This document shows positions 2,046 through 9,540 of a stretch of 10,000 nucleotides of DNA, in pieces. Source of the DNA: Acropora yongei (Eukaryota; Cnidaria; Anthozoa; Scleractinia; Acroporidae); contig BLFN01000232.1 of the NCBI GenBank assembly GCA_014634225.1, forward strand, positions 265,367-275,366, read 5' to 3'. Within the stretch, counting starts at the first letter, position 1. Every line of letters starts with the position of its first letter. The notes under the pieces are model-generated. The model saw nothing but the letters and a program-made list of their open reading frames with translations, did not search any database and was not told the origin of the DNA. Position numbers and translations under genes: made by a program.

Positions 2046-2588
2046 AAAGCTTTCCTCTCGACCATGCTAACATCCAAATGGATTTTGCAGAAAACTGTGT
2101 TAGACAATGGAGGAAAGGCAAAGTGCCTACTAGAATCAACCCACCAGACTCTGCATCCACCAGTCATTTATTACAAGAATGGTCAAGCTATAATGCAGCA
2201 CAAGAGTTTTGTAATTGTATCACATGAGTTGGTGCATGATTCATCCACCATGATAACCCACATACACAAAGTTGTGCCTGAAATTCCACACGCTTTTCCC
2301 AACTGGCCTGTACATTACTGGACCTAAAGCCCTATATCCCAGTACAGGCACAAGAATGCCTTCTTTAATTTCCAATCACCTGACAATGCTAGTGCCCCAT
2401 CCGCCTGGAACTACTCTGAGGCAGGCCACAGATATGGCCCACGCAATGGTGCCTCTGGTGCAGCATAAATGCTGCCTGACCAATCTGTAAATGCCAAAAA
2501 GGTCTTTTTCCAAGATTCAAACGAGTTCTCTTTCTAGCCAGGAAATTCAACTCCACAACAGGCCTCCAAGTAAAAGTTTGCTTCCAAA
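2046..2588 (+). pseudogene. DFAE-family transposase-like gene, left part, interrupted by insertion
   Basis: Remnant of a protein type I recognise as repeated in cnidarian genomes, without an established name. Frame 2 gives D-H-A-N-I-Q-M-D-F-A-E-N (2060-2095; Asp codon 2081-2083). A frameshift near 2100-2140 leads into frame 3 with L-H-P-P-V-I-Y-Y, H-K-S-F-V-I-V-S and H-Y-W-T. A TAA at 2325-2327 falls where the family usually has an Asp-containing S-D motif. S-Q-Y-R-H-K and P-S-A-W-N-Y-S-E-A-G-H follow, then TAA 2466-2468 and F-F-Q-D-S-N-E-F. The frame continues with stops to F-A-S-K at 2577-2588, where the 4.6-kb element begins. The spaced M-D-F and S-D motifs suggest an RNase H-fold (DDE-type) enzyme; this is inference. 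The other part is at 7229-7387. Confidence 0.65.
2586..2588. repeat. target site duplication AAA, left copy
   Basis: AAA directly precedes the CAC terminus of the 4.6-kb element and matches AAA at 7226-7228. It forms a Lys codon of the interrupted DFAE frame. Confidence 0.8.
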
Positions 2589-2622
2589 CACGCTGGGGAT
2601 TTTGAGCGTCGTTTCTGGCCAC
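2589..2622 (+). repeat. left terminal inverted repeat
   Basis: Fifteen bases are identical to the inverted right end. Counted ungapped to position 34, 24 positions agree, including GGCCAC at offset 28. Confidence 0.85.
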
Positions 2623-2960
2623 GGAAATGCACGAAAAAAAAAATTGGACCGCCACATTGGCCGTGCAGTCTGAACTCGAGAGACTGGATTTAAGTATTTT
2701 TGAAAGCTCCCCAGGCTCCGGAGGTCATGTTTTCCGGCCTGGCATGAAATTTTATGGCTTCTTTGTCGCTTGGTTTTTCGTTTGATACCAAATTTGCCGT
2801 GGTTTAGTTGTAGACAATTCTGTGCTTTGGCAGTCAACAGCAATCAATACTGAAAAGGACTACACATAAACGGTTTTTGGTAATGTTTGGCTTCAAAGAA
2901 TGTAGAAGAGCTCCTAGTTTCTGAGCATAGTGAAGGTACAATACGAAGAATGTTACCAAG
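2604..2960 (+). promoter_or_regulatory. left subterminal region and probable 5' UTR exon of the transposase gene
   Basis: A strong 5' splice site (AAG followed by GTAAGA) lies at 2960/2961. The matching acceptor TTTGCCTTTCAG ends at 3055, giving a 95-base intron in the 5' leader. Transcription must therefore begin within 2604-2960, close to the left end of the element; no clear TATA box is seen. The region is relatively CpG- and GC-rich (for example CTCCGGAG near 2714) and has an A10 run near 2633-2642. A minus-strand ORF crossing the region shows no recognisable domain and is not called. Confidence 0.5.
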
Positions 2961-3055
2961 GTAAGAATTTGTTCTTTTCCAAATTTTGGATTTGTGCCCG
3001 AGTTTTCAGCAAAGTTGTCATATGTAGACCTCAATTTTTTACTTTTGCCTTTCAG

Positions 3056-3241
3056 CTTCCATGCGTGGTGCGCCTTTGAGAGGAAATGATGGCACGTAGA
3101 ATGAGTTTTTATACACGATTCCCTATAGGTAAATATAGGGCAGCAAAGAAATTAGAGCAAGATGAGCTTGTGAAAAAGATGATAGAAACAAAGACCGACC
3201 TGAGCAGGAAGCCGACAAAACTAAAACGTCTTCAAGATAGG
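3056..3241 (+). CDS. transposase gene exon 2 (start codon at 3086)
   Basis: First coding exon of the plus-strand gene of the 4.6-kb element. The acceptor AG is at 3054-3055. An in-frame TGA at 3077-3079 precedes ATGATG at 3086, fixing the start. The exon gives 52 codons rich in Lys and Arg, ending K-R-L-Q-D-R. The donor AGG/GTAAGAG at 3241/3242 is close to consensus and leaves phase 0. An upstream ATG at 3061 opens a short overlapping uORF ending TAG at 3097-3099. The peptide is basic and probably helical; no domain is recognised. Splicing is predicted from sequence only. Confidence 0.6.
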
Positions 3242-3485
3242 GTAAGAGAGCGTTATAGCCAAGCTTGATTTCATAAATTAAAATCGTGTGTAACTGTTGC
3301 CAGCAATTATTTACTTACATGTTATAGTGTAATTTTGATATTCCTTTGTTTAAATTATGGTCATTACCATTTAATAACATGGAGAATGACAAAATACCTA
3401 TAGCAATTCAGGAGCCAGGGTGATCAAAGGTGGGAAGTGCTGATTTATTTATGTATGTGTACTCACATGTGTACTTATCATATAG

Positions 3486-3659
3486 GTGAGTTCTGTGGAT
3501 AGGAGTACAAGTGAGTTAAACAACAAGGTATGTGACTTGCATCAACAGGAACAACTCTTAATTATACCCACAAGGGACTACCCATTACTTACAGGGAGGA
3601 AGGCTGGTGCAACAGGGGGTATGTCATGTTTGGTTTTTCCTCAGAACCCTATTTGTAAG
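3486..3659 (+). CDS. transposase gene exon 3, two possible 3' splice boundaries
   Basis: The acceptor TATCATATAG ends at 3485 and the exon begins in phase 0. Two donors both keep phase 0: AAG/GTATGT at 3527/3528 (14 codons) and AAG/GTAAAG at 3659/3660 (58 codons). If neither is used the frame continues to a stop at 3705-3707, and an AATAAA follows at 3787-3792, so a short terminated transcript is possible. The long version looks protein-like (P-L-L-T-G-R-K-A-G, then L-V-F-P-Q-N-P). I cannot tell from sequence which form dominates. Confidence 0.5.
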
Positions 3660-3786
3660 GTAAAGACTTTTGCCCATCCCCATGTCTCCCCAGCTACATA
3701 TATTTGATACTGTGTATCTGATTAAATATACAATGTACCTGAGGATGGTAGGACTGATGATTCCAAATATTGTGCCAGTTTTTTAA

Positions 3787-3792
3787 AATAAA
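3787..3792 (+). terminator. possible intronic polyadenylation signal AATAAA
   Basis: It lies 80 bases after the stop at 3705-3707, which ends the unspliced exon 3 frame. Use would yield a protein of about 125 residues from exons 2 and 3. AT-rich introns contain such hexamers by chance. Confidence 0.3.
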
Positions 3793-3996
3793 TATTAATT
3801 GGGCTTGTTTAATTGCGCTTGACCACCATACACATTTTATAACCTGTACTGTAATTATTTTATCTTGAAATCATTTGTTGTAACTATACTTTTTTTCTAT
3901 ATTAATATCATATAAATAGTGTGGAGTAAATGAACTTTGAACCTACTGATATTTTGGTGACCCCTTTAAGTTGAATTGAGTCATTTACTTTATTAG

Positions 3997-6217
3997 ATTG
4001 CAAAGAAGAAATCCAAGAAAGAAAATATATTTCCCTTTTCCCTTGTTGAGAAGAGACTACAATCTCCAACAACCCTCTCTGACAAAGGAGACATAAGTGG
4101 CCCAAAAAGAACTTCCAACAGAAAGAAAGATGAGACTAGACGGGCAGCTATGGAAATCCATGGAGGAAGCCCAAACAACATGAAGCCAACCTATGATGGG
4201 CTTTTTGCAACTGTTATAACAGGTGCTCCTGTAGATCAACTGAGGAAGATGTGTTCAGTTTCCCCTGTTTTGAAAGAAAGAGTCATTCCTAACATTGTAA
4301 ATGAAAATGTAAAGGAATTTGAAACCAGTGATGTTAATTTTGTCAGAAGTGTTAATCTATTGTATAAAGATGGTCTTGTCAACAAAGCTAAGTATAACAG
4401 CATCAGGTCATCTTTGAGTATGACCAGCAATGGAGACAATACAGGGAAAAGCCATGTTAAATTTATGAAGAGTTGCCTCATTCCCAAACTCATGCCTTAC
4501 AAGCAATTGATGGCTAAGGTAAATGCCATTAATATTGGTACCTTACATGATGTGAGAGAAACCCTGTGTGATGGTTTGGATGATTCAGACAAAGTAGATG
4601 GGAAGTATAGAAATCTCACTGAATTGCTTTTGAGACTAGCTCAGTTCTACTTAGAAGCTAATAAGCACCGTGTTGATAAACTTAACTGGTCTGGCAAGGA
4701 GGTGGGATCTTTTAAGGTTGCTATGGGGGGGACGGGGCCCCCTTTGGCAAAGATGACACAGCCTTAAGCTGGTTAGTGAGCTTTCTTAATTGTGGTCCCA
4801 AAATTTGTAGCCACGAAGAAAATTTTCTTTTACTAGGAGCGAACTGTAAAGAGGATTGTGAACCCATCAGGCACTATGTGTGTAAGTTAGCTAACGAAAT
4901 GAATGAAGTAGAGAAGAAAACCTTCCCAGTAAATGTTGATGGCAAGGACATCACAGTATCATTCTCTTTTGAAATGTTCCCAAATGACATGAAATACCTA
5001 GCATTTCTCGCCGGTGAACTTTCCAATTCTGCAAAATATTTCTCGTCATTCGCTAACGTAAAAAAAAATGATATTAGTGATGTTACTGCCACTTTTGGGG
5101 TTAAAACATCAAACAAATGGCAACCTTGGGGTTATGCACAGAGAATTGCAGTAGCAGGTGCTGTAGCTAAAAAGAAAGAAGAGCTTGCTAGTTCCAGTTC
5201 GCACCTCAAGCCAGCTACAATTAGACAGAAGGTAACCTCATTTATTGCACAAAAAAGTCTCGACAGGAATTCCCCCCCTTGCTAGGTAAAGCAATTGACA
5301 AAGTTAAGGTGGAACCCTTGCATGTCAAAAACAATGGATGGCAACAGTGGCATTCAACGGTCTTGAAATATGTGTTAGCACGTACCAATGTAAGTAGCTG
5401 TGAGAGTGTCAATGACACTCCTTCCTCAAGCTGCTTTAAACGGTATTACGAAACAGTAAGATTTACCCTAAAGGCCACAAGACTTGCTAAAAAGGTGAGG
5501 AAGTGGTTCTGTGACGGCCGTTTGAAAAACAAGGACCTTGAGTACAGGTTCACAGGGAAGGAATCCTTGATAATGTGTCATCAATTGACATTGCTTTCTC
5601 CTCTTGAACTAGAAGATGACCAACCATAATTTTGCTTTGCATGTGTTTGCTACTATTGCTGTGAACCTAAGGGACACTGTGTCTATATTCAGTAGAATTA
5701 AAGTGAGAGATGAAGAGGTCACAAGTTTGACAGGTGTTACAAGCAATTACTTTAGGGCATGTGCACTCTTTTTTCATCAGTCTCTCCAACTACTTGGACT
5801 ATTGGCCATTGTGTGGCAGCTCACACAAAACAAATTAAACAGGAACTTGGTGTAGGACTTGGGGTCAACACAATGGAGGGCAGAGAAACTAAACATGTCT
5901 CTCTCGCCAGATTTGCACGAAACACCCACCATTCAACGCGTTGGGTGCAGGTATTCAGACATGAATACATCTCCCTTATCTGGCTTAGGGAAAATGGGTG
6001 TGATTTGGTTAAACACACACCCACCAAGAATAAGTATATCCCTGCACGATGCTTCACTGCCACATTTTGCCACTGTGGCAACCAGAAACCCCAAGGGGAG
6101 GCTAAATGTACTTTCTGCAGTCACCCCATACAGCAGACTATTGGTGATTGTATAACGCAAGGTAAAGTGACTGCTCAGGCTAAGAGGTTAGCAGCTAATG
6201 CTAGGGGTGTAATGTAA
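3997..6217 (+). CDS. candidate transposase, main exon, with frameshifts
   Basis: The exon follows acceptor TTTACTTTATTAG (AG 3995-3996) in phase 0. It opens with a Lys-rich segment, then R-R-A-A-M-E-I-H-G-G near 4140-4161. Frames used in order: frame 1 to about 4725, frame 3 to about 5251, frame 2 to about 5620, frame 3 to about 5780, frame 2 to the TAA at 6215-6217. Key blocks: G-G and D-G-A-P-F-G-K around 4725-4752, straddling the first shift; W-L-V-S-F-L-N; N-F-L-L-L-G-A-N; P-N-D-M-K (Asp 4986-4988); G-E-L-S-N-S-A-K-Y-F; E-P-L-H-V-K-N-N (5312-5335); F-T-G-K-E; S-T-R-W; and a C-x-C-G ... C-x-F-C cluster (Cys codons 6068, 6074, 6107, 6116). With exons 2 and 3 the protein would be about 805-850 residues. 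I recognise this as an uncharacterised family recurring in cnidarians. The DG-x-P-F-G, N and hydrophobic order parallels CACTA transposases (Transposase_21). The catalytic role is inferred. Confidence 0.65.
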
Positions 6218-6455
6218 ACATAACTTTATTCTAAACAAGTATCAAAACTGTTTGATAAGTAAGTAAGTATCAAAACTCTTATGTCAACTTATTTATTGTT
6301 CCCTATGTATTGTTGGGCAATTGTCAACACTGAAATGAATGTCATATGTTTTACATGTTATATATTTTACACTATGGAAATAAACTTATTATTGTTCCCA
6401 CAATTTAAACTGTTGAGAAAATGTATTTTACAGTGATGCTAGTGCAGAAAATAAA
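6218..6455 (+). terminator. 3' UTR and polyadenylation signals of the transposase gene
   Basis: AT-rich sequence after the stop at 6215-6217, with AATAAA hexamers at 6379-6384 and 6450-6455. The complement also shows AATAAA (TTTATT at 6292-6297 and 6225-6230) suited to the opposing gene, so the two transcripts may overlap at their 3' ends. Confidence 0.5.
6237..6277 (+). repeat. 13-base direct repeat in 3' UTR
   Basis: AAGTATCAAAACT occurs at 6237-6249 and again at 6265-6277, with GTAAGTAA between them. Function unknown; it may be a simple local duplication. Confidence 0.7.
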
Positions 6456-6565
6456 CAATCACTGAAAAAAGTAGTTCGAGTAATTGTGTTTTCTACAAGT
6501 CCGAAATATGTTGAGGCCAGCCATATTCATTCCATACTCCATAAAAGAAATAACATGTGATCTCC
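6456..6565. other. intergenic stretch between convergent genes
   Basis: AT-rich sequence between the last plus-strand polyadenylation signal and the end of the minus-strand ORF. No coding signal or repeat is seen; it is likely the shared 3' UTR zone. Confidence 0.4.
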
Positions 6566-7132
6566 TCAGTTGTTAAATTTAATAACACACCAAATTCCTT
6601 TTTCGTCATTGATTAAAGCTTGCACTTTCTTTTTACCACTTGCCGATCTCTTAAGGAATTTTTCTTTTTCGATTTTGCTATCCATAATCTCACAAAACAG
6701 ACGTCGCACCTTCGTTTCCCTGGTAAAAACCATTATAATGCGCTTTCTTGTACTGTGCGTGGTAACCCCGTAAGAGCTTCTGGTAGCAATTTGTTGAACT
6801 ATGGCAAATAGATCCCTGCTGAGATTTTCCGAAACAGTAACTCTCCATGGATTTTTCACTCCACACCTTGCGATCATTCGTCGCATAAATGTTTTATACC
6901 ATCTTTTTGAAATACTTGTCAGCATGGGAAATGCTGCCAAGAGCACGTGCCTGTGTTTTTGTCGAACACTTCCAAAATGCTTTTTTGACACTGAAGACGA
7001 ACACATCCTTAACTCACAGAAAGCCTCATTGGTTGGGGAACTTTCCATTCCTGCACTTATCAGCTCATCTTGAGCCAGCTGCAGGGCAGGCAGGACAGTT
7101 GTTTCAAATTTGTTCACACTTGCGTCTGCCAT
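6566..7132 (-). CDS. 188-residue basic protein of unknown function, second gene of the transposon
   Basis: Uninterrupted minus-strand ORF inside the 4.6-kb element. The start ATG (7130-7132) has a good context (A at -3, G at +4) and lies 93 bases inside the right terminus, so transcription would start near that end and run inward. The protein is Lys/Arg-rich, with K-R-W-Y-K-T-F-M-R-R-M in the middle and K-R-S-A-S-G-K-K-K-V near the C-terminus, suggesting nucleic-acid binding or nuclear entry. It has only scattered cysteines and no zinc-finger pattern, signal peptide or membrane segment. I recognise no family. Being free of stops and shifts next to a frameshifted partner supports it as real. 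CACTA elements commonly encode a second DNA-binding protein; by analogy this could be such a partner, but that is inference. A splice near the end (TTTG/GTGTGT) could replace the last residues. Confidence 0.6.
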   Translation of the reverse strand: MADASVNKFETTVLPALQLAQDELISAGMESSPTNEAFCELRMCSSSVSKKHFGSVRQKHRHVLLAAFPMLTSISKRWYKTFMRRMIARCGVKNPWRVTVSENLSRDLFAIVQQIATRSSYGVTTHSTRKRIIMVFTRETKVRRLFCEIMDSKIEKEKFLKRSASGKKKVQALINDEKGIWCVIKFNN

Positions 7133-7225
7133 TTTTAATTTTGAGAAAGCCTACTAATAACACCGCTGACCCTTGACCTCGCGGGAAAGAAGTGGCCTGA
7201 TCTTGCCTCAAAAATCCCCAGCGTG
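7133..7225 (-). promoter_or_regulatory. right terminal inverted repeat and probable promoter of the minus-strand gene
   Basis: The outer 15 bases (7211-7225) are the inverse of the left end. The inner part contains GTGGCC at 7192-7197 at the mirrored offset and a CpG-bearing stretch (CCTCGCGGGAAA near 7177-7188). It directly precedes the ATG of the 188-residue ORF. No TATA box is evident. Confidence 0.65.
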
Positions 7226-7228
7226 AAA
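7226..7228. repeat. target site duplication AAA, right copy
   Basis: Matches 2586-2588 and abuts the GTG end of the transposon. Counting only one AAA keeps the DFAE frame continuous. Confidence 0.8.
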
Positions 7229-7387
7229 GAAGAATGTGATAACAGAAGACAAGATCAATTAAGCAAGGCAAATATATTCTAGGCCAGAGACAGGCACCAT
7301 GAAGCTTCAAAATATTACCCTGTCGCAGTTGCTCCACTAAAAATCAAGTCTACAACAACATCCTGTTACTGCTCCTTGTGCTTTTGA
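7229..7387 (+). pseudogene. DFAE-family gene, right part after the insertion
   Basis: Frame 2 reads E-E-C-D-N-R-R, then L-S-K-A-N, a TAG at 7280-7282, and T-T-S-C-Y-C-S-L-C-F before TGA 7385-7387. With the left part it makes S-K-E-E at the joint and a C-x-C-x-x-C cysteine motif further on, the order expected for this family. It shows that the sequence on both sides of the 4.6-kb element was once one gene. Confidence 0.65.
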
Positions 7388-7456
7388 GAAGAAGGGTTTA
7401 AAGAGATCACAGAATGCCGGTGGCAGCCACACATCATTTCCCTTAGGCCTAAAAAC
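7388..7456. other. short unassigned stretch
   Basis: Between the end of the DFAE frame and the antisense LINE fragment. Nothing recognisable; it may be the LINE 3' UTR (antisense) or the DFAE tail. Confidence 0.3.
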
Positions 7457-7971: not shown

Positions 7972-9540
7972 ATGGTCCTTTGTCTCATTGTCGGATGTGG
8001 CAATAAAAGGAGCAAGATATGGCGCACGACTGAAAAAGTAAGCTTTTTTTGTGTTCGACGTGTTGTTGTCAACCAAGAAGAGTAGATGGAAGAGTTGACT
8101 GAGGCGCGAAGAAGGTGGACTTTGGCGATCAGCAGAGAGAACTTACCTGACTCGATTTTAGAAAATGGCCGGGTTTGCAGCAAGCATTTTGCATCAGGAG
8201 AACCTGCTAAAGACTGGGATCGTTTTGACGTGGATTGGTTCCCTACTATTTGTCTTAGGCATTCTAAACAAGTGAAAGACCCCTAGGCAGCTGAAGTTTG
8301 GTCTCAAAGAGCTGCCGGAAGACGAAAACGTTGATCTGAGTTGCGTGAAAATGAGATAAAAGAGAAAATGCTAAAAATTGACAAAACAGGGGAGACAATT
8401 GAAGAAATACCTTTTTCCGAGGAGGATCGACTGGGTGAAAACCTCGAACAAGATGGAACAACAGATGCTGAACAAACAAACAGTTAAATTGAAGATGAGA
8501 CTAACGCATCAGTCAATGGTGAGCAAACAACAGTGGACGCTGGAACTCAGACAGTGAACTCAGATTTGAAAGTAAAAATCCAAACTCAAGCAGCAATGCA
8601 GACTGATTAATTTGAATACTTATTCACGGAGACAGTCTACCAGCCTTTTACAGAAGAGCACTTTGTTAATAATGAATACAGGGTGCGGTTTTACACTGGT
8701 TTGCCTGGTTTTGATGTACTTAACACCACTCTTTGTTTTGTTAGCCCATTTGTTAGTCGAAAGAGCTGACATTATTTCAAGAATTCATTATGGTTTTAAT
8801 CAAACTAAGACTTGGTGTTCCACAACAAGACCTGGCCTTTCGGTTTGGAGTCTCGCTTTCATCTGTTTCAAGGACATTTACTGCATGGTCGCCTGTTGTG
8901 GATGTAAGGTTATCTCCCCTCACTAGGTGGCCAGAAAGAGATGAGTTATGATATACAATGCCTATCTGTTTCCAGTTTTCTTTTGGGAAGAAAACAACAA
9001 TAATAATAGACTGTTTTGAAGGTTCTGTAGAACGCTCTTCCAATCTGCTTGCAAGGTCGCAAACGTTTTCGAAGTAAAAGCATCACAATACAGTGAAAGT
9101 ACTTATTGGAATCACACCTCAAAGATCGATGTGCTTTACATCAAAAGCATGGGGAGGACTGACTTCTGATAAATACCTAACAGAGAGGTGCGGTTTACTA
9201 AGCAACCTCAAGCCTGGGGACCTGGTATTGGCTGACAGAGGGTTCACAATTAGTGAAAGTGTTGCACTCTATCAAGCACAGTTAGCTTTCCCAGCCTTCA
9301 CAAAAGGCAAGAACCAACTAGATCCATTTGATGTAGAAACACAACAAATTGCAAATGTGCGAATACATGTGGAGCATCTCATTAGACATGTGAGGCAAAA
9401 ATAAACTCTTGTAGTTAACTCTACCACTGGATTACCTCACCTGTTCTAACAATGCTGCAAACTGTCCATTGATTGACAAGATGATCAGAGTTTGCTCAGC
9501 TCTGACAAATCTTTGCCAATCTGTTGTCCCCTTTGAGTAA
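7972..9540 (+). pseudogene. THAP-domain DDE_Tnp_4 transposase (ISL2EU/Harbinger-related), dead copy
   Basis: Almost full-length transposase gene of about 520 codons. Frame 1 from ATG 7972 encodes an N-terminal THAP zinc finger: C-L-I-V-G-C, then V-C-S-K-H-F for the C-x-x-H pair, and a Pro after D-W-F. A Gln/Thr/Glu-rich linker with G-T-Q-T repeats follows (8500-8610). A one-base loss near 8761-8766 moves to frame 3, with R-L-G-V-P-Q-Q-D-L-A-F-R-F-G-V-S and the DDE domain: I-I-I-D-C-F-E (first Asp), L-A-D-R-G-F (second Asp) and R-I-H-V-E-H-L (Glu). A last shift near 9470 gives the family-like end S-V-V-P-F-E and TAA 9538-9540. In-frame stops: 8083, 8284, 8332, 8485, 8608, 8949, 9075, 9402. Eight stops and two shifts rule out function. 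Confidence 0.88.

Follow-up and report, generated by a model that had tools for sequence, protein, structure and literature searches.

The locus raises the question of which kind of mobile element is bounded by short inverted ends starting with CAC, carries two genes between them, and lies between matching 3-bp flanks. Such features call to mind both the CACTA transposons and the RAG-like elements. The window (the whole 10,000-nucleotide stretch of Acropora yongei DNA that was analysed) contains one copy, spanning positions 2589-7225 (4,637 bp). It is read here, with a probability of roughly 0.78, as a DNA transposon of the cut-and-paste type, now decayed, which moved by the mechanism proposed below. 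The features of the element are collected in Table 1.

Table 1. Features of the element and of its immediate flanks, in window coordinates.
Feature	Position	Strand	Description and basis
Left target duplication (3 bp)	2586..2588	.	AAA; read directly
Left TIR	2589..2603	+	CACGCTGGGGATTTT; 15/15 complementary to 7211-7225
Left subterminal block	2614..2622	+	TCTGGCCAC; offset 25; 8/9 identical to right block
Transposase exon 1	3089..3241	+	51 aa, basic, RFP motif; in frame, GT donor next at 3242
Predicted intron	3242..3996	+	GTAAGA...TTATTAG, phase 0 on both sides; splice sites, uninterrupted joined translation
Transposase exon 2	3997..6217	+	Five overlapping stop-to-stop pieces, changing frame; ORFs
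Putative first catalytic Asp codon	4731..4733	+	GGDGAPFG; column D in 92/92, codon checked
Putative second catalytic Asp codon	4986..4988	+	PNDMK; column D in 92/92, codon checked
Putative catalytic Glu codon	5885..5887	+	MEGRETKH (family MEGREAKH); column E in 89/89, codon checked
Second gene, convergent with the transposase	6505..7132	-	Main ORF from 7132 to ~6599; C-terminus in another frame to 6505
Right subterminal block	7192..7200	-	TCAGGCCAC, read inward; same offset 25
Right TIR	7211..7225	-	Exact reverse complement of left TIR, 15/15
Right target duplication (3 bp)	7226..7228	.	AAA; read directly

The initial annotation had described inverted 15-base ends, a mirrored GGCCAC at offset 28 and AAA on both sides, and all of these were recovered. 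The termini of the window copy read CACGC...GCGTG, and the terminal inverted repeats (TIRs) are the sole exact 15-bp inverted pair within the window. When the window was shuffled 400 times with its dinucleotides preserved, exact 15-bp inverted pairs occurred 0.12 times per shuffle and were present in 32 of the 400, so that the TIR alone does not settle the matter and needs the 3-bp match and the gene content beside it. When identical 3-bp flanks were included, the frequency was 0.0025 per shuffle. GGCCAC is part of the 9-bp subterminal block, which is found in register at both ends (shuffle P = 0.0037, with the block length picked after the block was noticed). The AAA flanks are weak by themselves because the region is AT-rich, and at 5 bp the flanks are unequal (CCAAA on the left, AAAGA on the right). 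Both genes lie wholly between the two ends. Taken jointly, ends, subterminal block and matching flanks exceed chance in this one copy, from which both boundaries, the TIR and the duplication are known. That these ends delimit a DNA transposon is well supported by the TIR, the second block, the 3-bp flanks and the gene content. Searches with the 15-bp terminus returned 46 stretches in viral contigs and at least 120 in prokaryote genomes. None of 166 such loci encodes a relative of four query proteins, and they were accordingly taken as chance matches.

A further argument for the boundaries did not survive. Removal of the element together with one AAA was said to reconnect a coding frame, which was offered as independent proof of both boundaries and of the 3-bp duplication. 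The joined flanks do read ...KFASK/EECDN... across the junction, but to the left of the junction this frame is open for only five sense codons, and to the right for 17, before a stop interrupts it. Over the whole of 2046-2588 + 7229-7420 it contains four stops to the left of the junction and two to the right. A search with the joined flanks scored 587 candidates and, with matches accepted to E = 1, found one relative, P0139 (E = 0.018). P0139 aligns to the left flank up to about base 2492 with 28% identity over 120 columns, and the alignment beyond that base contains nothing convincing. For the right flank in its three frames, 0.352, 0.618 and 0.646 of 500 of its own shuffles reach the score against P0139. 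The joined score was also unchanged when 0-5 bases of the right copy were omitted. With stops on both sides and a right flank no better than its shuffles, frame restoration fails as evidence: the continuous reading is present, but its use as boundary proof was rejected after the joined-flank and P0139 tests. The flanking sequence is a pseudogene in decay, whose frame offers no usable evidence in either direction.

The surroundings of the element hold several other remnants. Positions 2045-2492 represent a decayed gene of the family to which P0139 belongs, beside which the element inserted; the left-flank protein was not found in viral contigs. A second DNA transposon remnant occupies 7981-9401 in two frames, with matches to THAP (~7981-8250), HTH_Tnp_4 (~8763-8918) and DDE_Tnp_4 (~9006-9401), a domain set that we take to be ISL2EU/Harbinger-like. 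At ~312-476 there is a weak DDE_Tnp_1_7 match (E 0.0032, under Pfam's cut-off). Together with the Cys-rich stretch at 1861-2040, which presumably resembles a piggyBac tail, it is likely a piggyBac remnant. The tRNA-like promoter stretch GGTTCGAGTCC at ~1430-1500 may be a SINE; ARAGORN reported nothing there, nor did Rfam at E up to 0.1.

The transposase gene runs on the forward strand in two exons. The pieces of the second exon (3997-4767, 4716-5285, 5225-5629, 5613-5855 and 5756-6217) are collinear with the intact relatives P0001 and P0002, the fourth (5613-5855) having been aligned by eye only. For exon 1, six of the 120 listed proteins supplied N-termini for comparison, and this comparison is biased towards a match because the six were chosen for an early RFP motif. 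The scores for P0014, P0022 and P0049 were reached by none of 1000 shuffles, those for P0061, P0044 and P0038 by 2, 18 and 29. Among the matches listed P0001 is the nearest relative (84% identity over 84% of the read-through query), and it was sister to the window transposase in a 111-row tree with an SH-aLRT support of 100. The frame changes in exon 2 and in the second gene are probably real and not errors of the assembly, though some of them may be. If they are real, the window copy is no longer able to make its own transposase and could be moved at most by transposase made elsewhere.

The predicted transposase belongs to a sizeable family. Scoring of 8,000 candidates gave 240 homologous proteins, of which the best 120 were listed. 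Five of these 120 carry organism names, and all five are from Anthozoa, which by itself would suggest an anthozoan host: two from Acropora cervicornis and one each from the stony coral Porites evermanni, the anemone Exaiptasia diaphana and the octocoral Dendronephthya gigantea. The last of these, P0089 (1124 aa), has an extra N-terminal part ahead of the transposase region that resembles a HECT ligase domain; either a fusion in the gene model or the capture of a domain from the host may account for it. P0114, P0115, P0116, P0118 and P0120 are near-identical 686-residue transposases on end branches of 0-0.015; they are encoded on contigs of differing lengths and may be recent copies of one family member.

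None of the best 120 relatives has a precomputed Pfam domain. When 50 members were scanned against Pfam with a limit of E = 10, the matches were scattered and weak, and the 25 families listed out of 31 included none of transposases. Transposase_21 was not matched by the window pieces or four relatives (E up to 1). PIF/Harbinger transposons likewise make 3-bp duplications, and their DDE_Tnp_4 domain had no match in the pieces of the element and none listed for the 50 relatives. Among the PDB chains listed by a profile search with the transposase (limit E = 10), none was of RAG1 or Transib, and there was no meaningful match. NCBIfam gave no match for six proteins, and PHROGs a single weightless one (E = 0.31) for three. 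Pattern matches to the transposase numbered 22 in viral contigs and 237 in prokaryote genomes, none of which was confirmed. Judging from these sequence comparisons, the proteins form a large anthozoan-associated transposase family that is undescribed in the domain libraries searched. No description of it was found among the open-licence papers listed, which were covered through titles and abstract openings, without sequence comparison. The coral MITEs described in part of PMC2872659 have TTAA duplications and are piggyBac-like, and were set aside as unrelated.

The putative active site was located in an alignment of 92 of the best 120 relatives, selected mainly for length. Two aspartates, D234 and D319, are invariant (92/92 each), as is E619 in all 89 sequences with a residue in that column. 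Histidines are found at H429 in 91 of 92 and at H598 in 90 of 90. The D-D-E triad is probably the active site, and the residues around it can be compared with RAG1, in which D600, D708 and E962 are catalytic and C727, C730, H937 and H942 bind zinc (excerpt of PMC4914335); H795 is a further active-site residue (excerpt of PMC7204232). Four local spacings agree to within one residue. In 91 of 92 relatives the second aspartate is followed by the places of the former cysteines at distances of 19 and 22 residues, which are also the values in mouse RAG1 as numbered in PMC4914335. By the same numbering, the distance between the two histidines is 5 in the family (90/90) and 5 in mouse RAG1, and that from histidine to glutamate is 21 (89/89) and 20. 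Three larger spacings differ: D1-D2 is 81-90 in the family vs 108 in RAG1, D2-E 279-305 vs 254, and D2 to the third histidine 89-113 vs 87.

The zinc-binding cysteines themselves are not preserved in the family. The place of C727 is taken by Ser in all 92 relatives and that of C730 by Ala in 81, Gly in 9 and Ser in 2, so CxxC is absent from the RAG1-equivalent place in 92/92. Some cysteine is found at most 45 residues from the second aspartate in 62 of 92, and a CxxC anywhere between the second aspartate and the glutamate in only four of 92, at D2+176, +249, +249 and +252. In the H(4)H motif before the glutamate the first histidine is present in 52 of 90 relatives and the second in all 90. The local residue layout therefore looks to be of the RAG1 type with the zinc site apparently lost, and it may have been retained through common descent.

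Over 178 aa the second gene shares 85% identity with P0121, and its C-terminal piece, in a different frame, aligns at 47% over 64 columns. It has 18 homologues among 68 candidates, far fewer than the transposase with its 240 among 8,000, and may thus be confined to the closer relatives or have a higher rate of evolution; the rarity is tempered by the dependence of the homologue search on exact 5-residue words. A PF26709.1 label is attached to 17 of the 18 homologues, and a Pfam scan of two of them did not recover PF26709. No Pfam match to kelch was obtained for P0121 or P0124 at E up to 1, comparison with solved structures gave no meaningful match, and the gene was not found in viral contigs. 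An origin as an offshoot of the transposase was considered and rejected, the profile match being not credible (probability 2.6%). The product is a putative transposition cofactor.

Starting from the observed ends, duplication, gene structure, conserved D-D-E pattern and frame changes, the following mechanism is proposed. The transposase would bind both ends of the element, with the 15-bp TIR and the block at offset 25 as its putative binding sites. Its RNase-H-like D-D-E site would then cut next to the terminal CAC, and the ends would be joined to the target at a stagger of 3 bp, which would produce the AAA duplication. The second protein would presumably help in this process.

Known transposases with a comparable mechanism are grouped in the CMCT clade, which comprises EnSpm/CACTA, Mirage, Chapaev, Transib, Plavaka, ESTA, Lanisha and RAG1. 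According to the available part of PMC12730594, its members have D, D and E together with C(2)C and H(3-4)H, mostly CA..TG ends, and duplications of 2-5 bp. The element shares the D-D-E pattern and, in the window copy, the CA..TG ends and a duplication in this range. As C(2)C between the second aspartate and the glutamate is missing at its place throughout the alignment, the element was not filed as a member. The likeness to CACTA/EnSpm raised in the initial annotation is supported at the level of mechanism (CAC...GTG, 3-bp duplication, D-D-E with local spacing like that of RAG1) but not of membership, where the CACGC terminus, the unlisted Transposase_21 and the absent CxxC stand against it. 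Most likely, the element works like CACTA and RAG, although it is not filed under CMCT.

Of the other explanations, an ordinary animal EnSpm/CACTA family already in Repbase or Dfam survives best, and even so it is doubtful. CAC...GTG ends with 3-bp duplications do serve to classify EnSpm (PMC12730594, in part), and an animal CACTA relative without the CACTA terminus, SmTRC1, has been published. However, the excerpt describing SmTRC1 (PMC1636069) credits it with Transposase_21, to which no match is listed for the family of the element, and the loss of CxxC does not fit either. It is unlikely that the transposase belongs instead to some other DDE superfamily, such as KDZ, Kolobok, Academ or Zator or one not yet described, and that its RAG1-like spacing and the CAC ends are coincidental. 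The missing C(2)C speaks for it, no sequence profile ties the family to CACTA or RAG1, and the RAG1 likeness consists of the four local spacings and few residues, with the three larger spacings differing. Yet all four local spacings would have to agree with RAG1 by accident, and so would ends and a duplication length typical of CMCT (PMC12730594, in part).

It is very improbable that the inverted ends pair up by chance and that the genes lie in a larger or otherwise bounded element. The frequency of exact 15-bp pairs in shuffles, the single copy and the flank frame test without support would allow this, but the 3-bp flanks match, the second block is in register, both genes lie inside the ends, and the sequence outside them derives at least partly from other remnants.

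The reading as a cut-and-paste transposon of CACTA/RAG type bears on wider questions. RAG1 enables antibody-gene recombination and is descended from such a transposase. If the reading is true, a large family with the RAG layout and without the zinc site would help to ask which parts of RAG are essential, and a possible partner unrelated to RAG2 would bear on whether convergent two-gene elements arose more than once. The family would also give a name to proteins now labelled hypothetical or uncharacterized in coral and anemone gene sets.

Comparison with RAG-like (RAGL) elements, as far as the excerpt of PMC7204232 describes them, shows both likeness and difference. RAGL elements start with CAC, have a short conserved end and carry a convergent gene pair with a kelch partner; their duplications are nearly always 5 bp, as in RAG and Transib, and RAG1L keeps the zinc-coordinating residues. 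That the element is a RAG-like or Transib element proper is disfavoured and the least probable explanation of all, since the convergent genes of the window copy, the CAC start and the local active-site spacing are offset by a 3-bp AAA with unequal 5-bp flanks, a second gene without kelch match, and Ser and Ala/Gly/Ser in place of the zinc cysteines. The likeness to RAGL, RAG1 and Transib extends to a conserved terminal stretch of ~15 bp and to a cysteine motif after the glutamate, which reads CxC...CxxC in the family vs Cx2Cx3GHx4C in the others.

Compared with EnSpm/CACTA, the element ends in CACGC where these have CACTA, and lacks a listed match to their Transposase_21. SmTRC1 and the animal TRC elements resemble it in being animal elements (4.5-4.7 kb) distantly related to CACTA with a non-CACTA terminus. 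SmTRC1 differs in that its terminus is CCC, its TIR measures 54 bp, 7 of 14 copies show a 2-bp direct repeat, and it has Transposase_21 (PMC1636069, in part). Lanisha, ESTA and Plavaka are near EnSpm and have the CMCT motifs; by their description in part of PMC12730594, all three retain C(2)C, which the family lacks at its place, as well as H(3-4)H. A new clade, which the initial annotation had raised, is plausible. More specifically, and tentatively at less than even odds, the element may represent an undescribed anthozoan lineage of superfamily level, sister to CACTA, Transib and RAG, with a RAG-type layout, loss of the zinc site that has a structural role in RAG1 and, in the window copy at least, a convergent partner unrelated to RAG2. 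Most likely the lineage is new but its kind already known, judged against the descriptions of the other groups.
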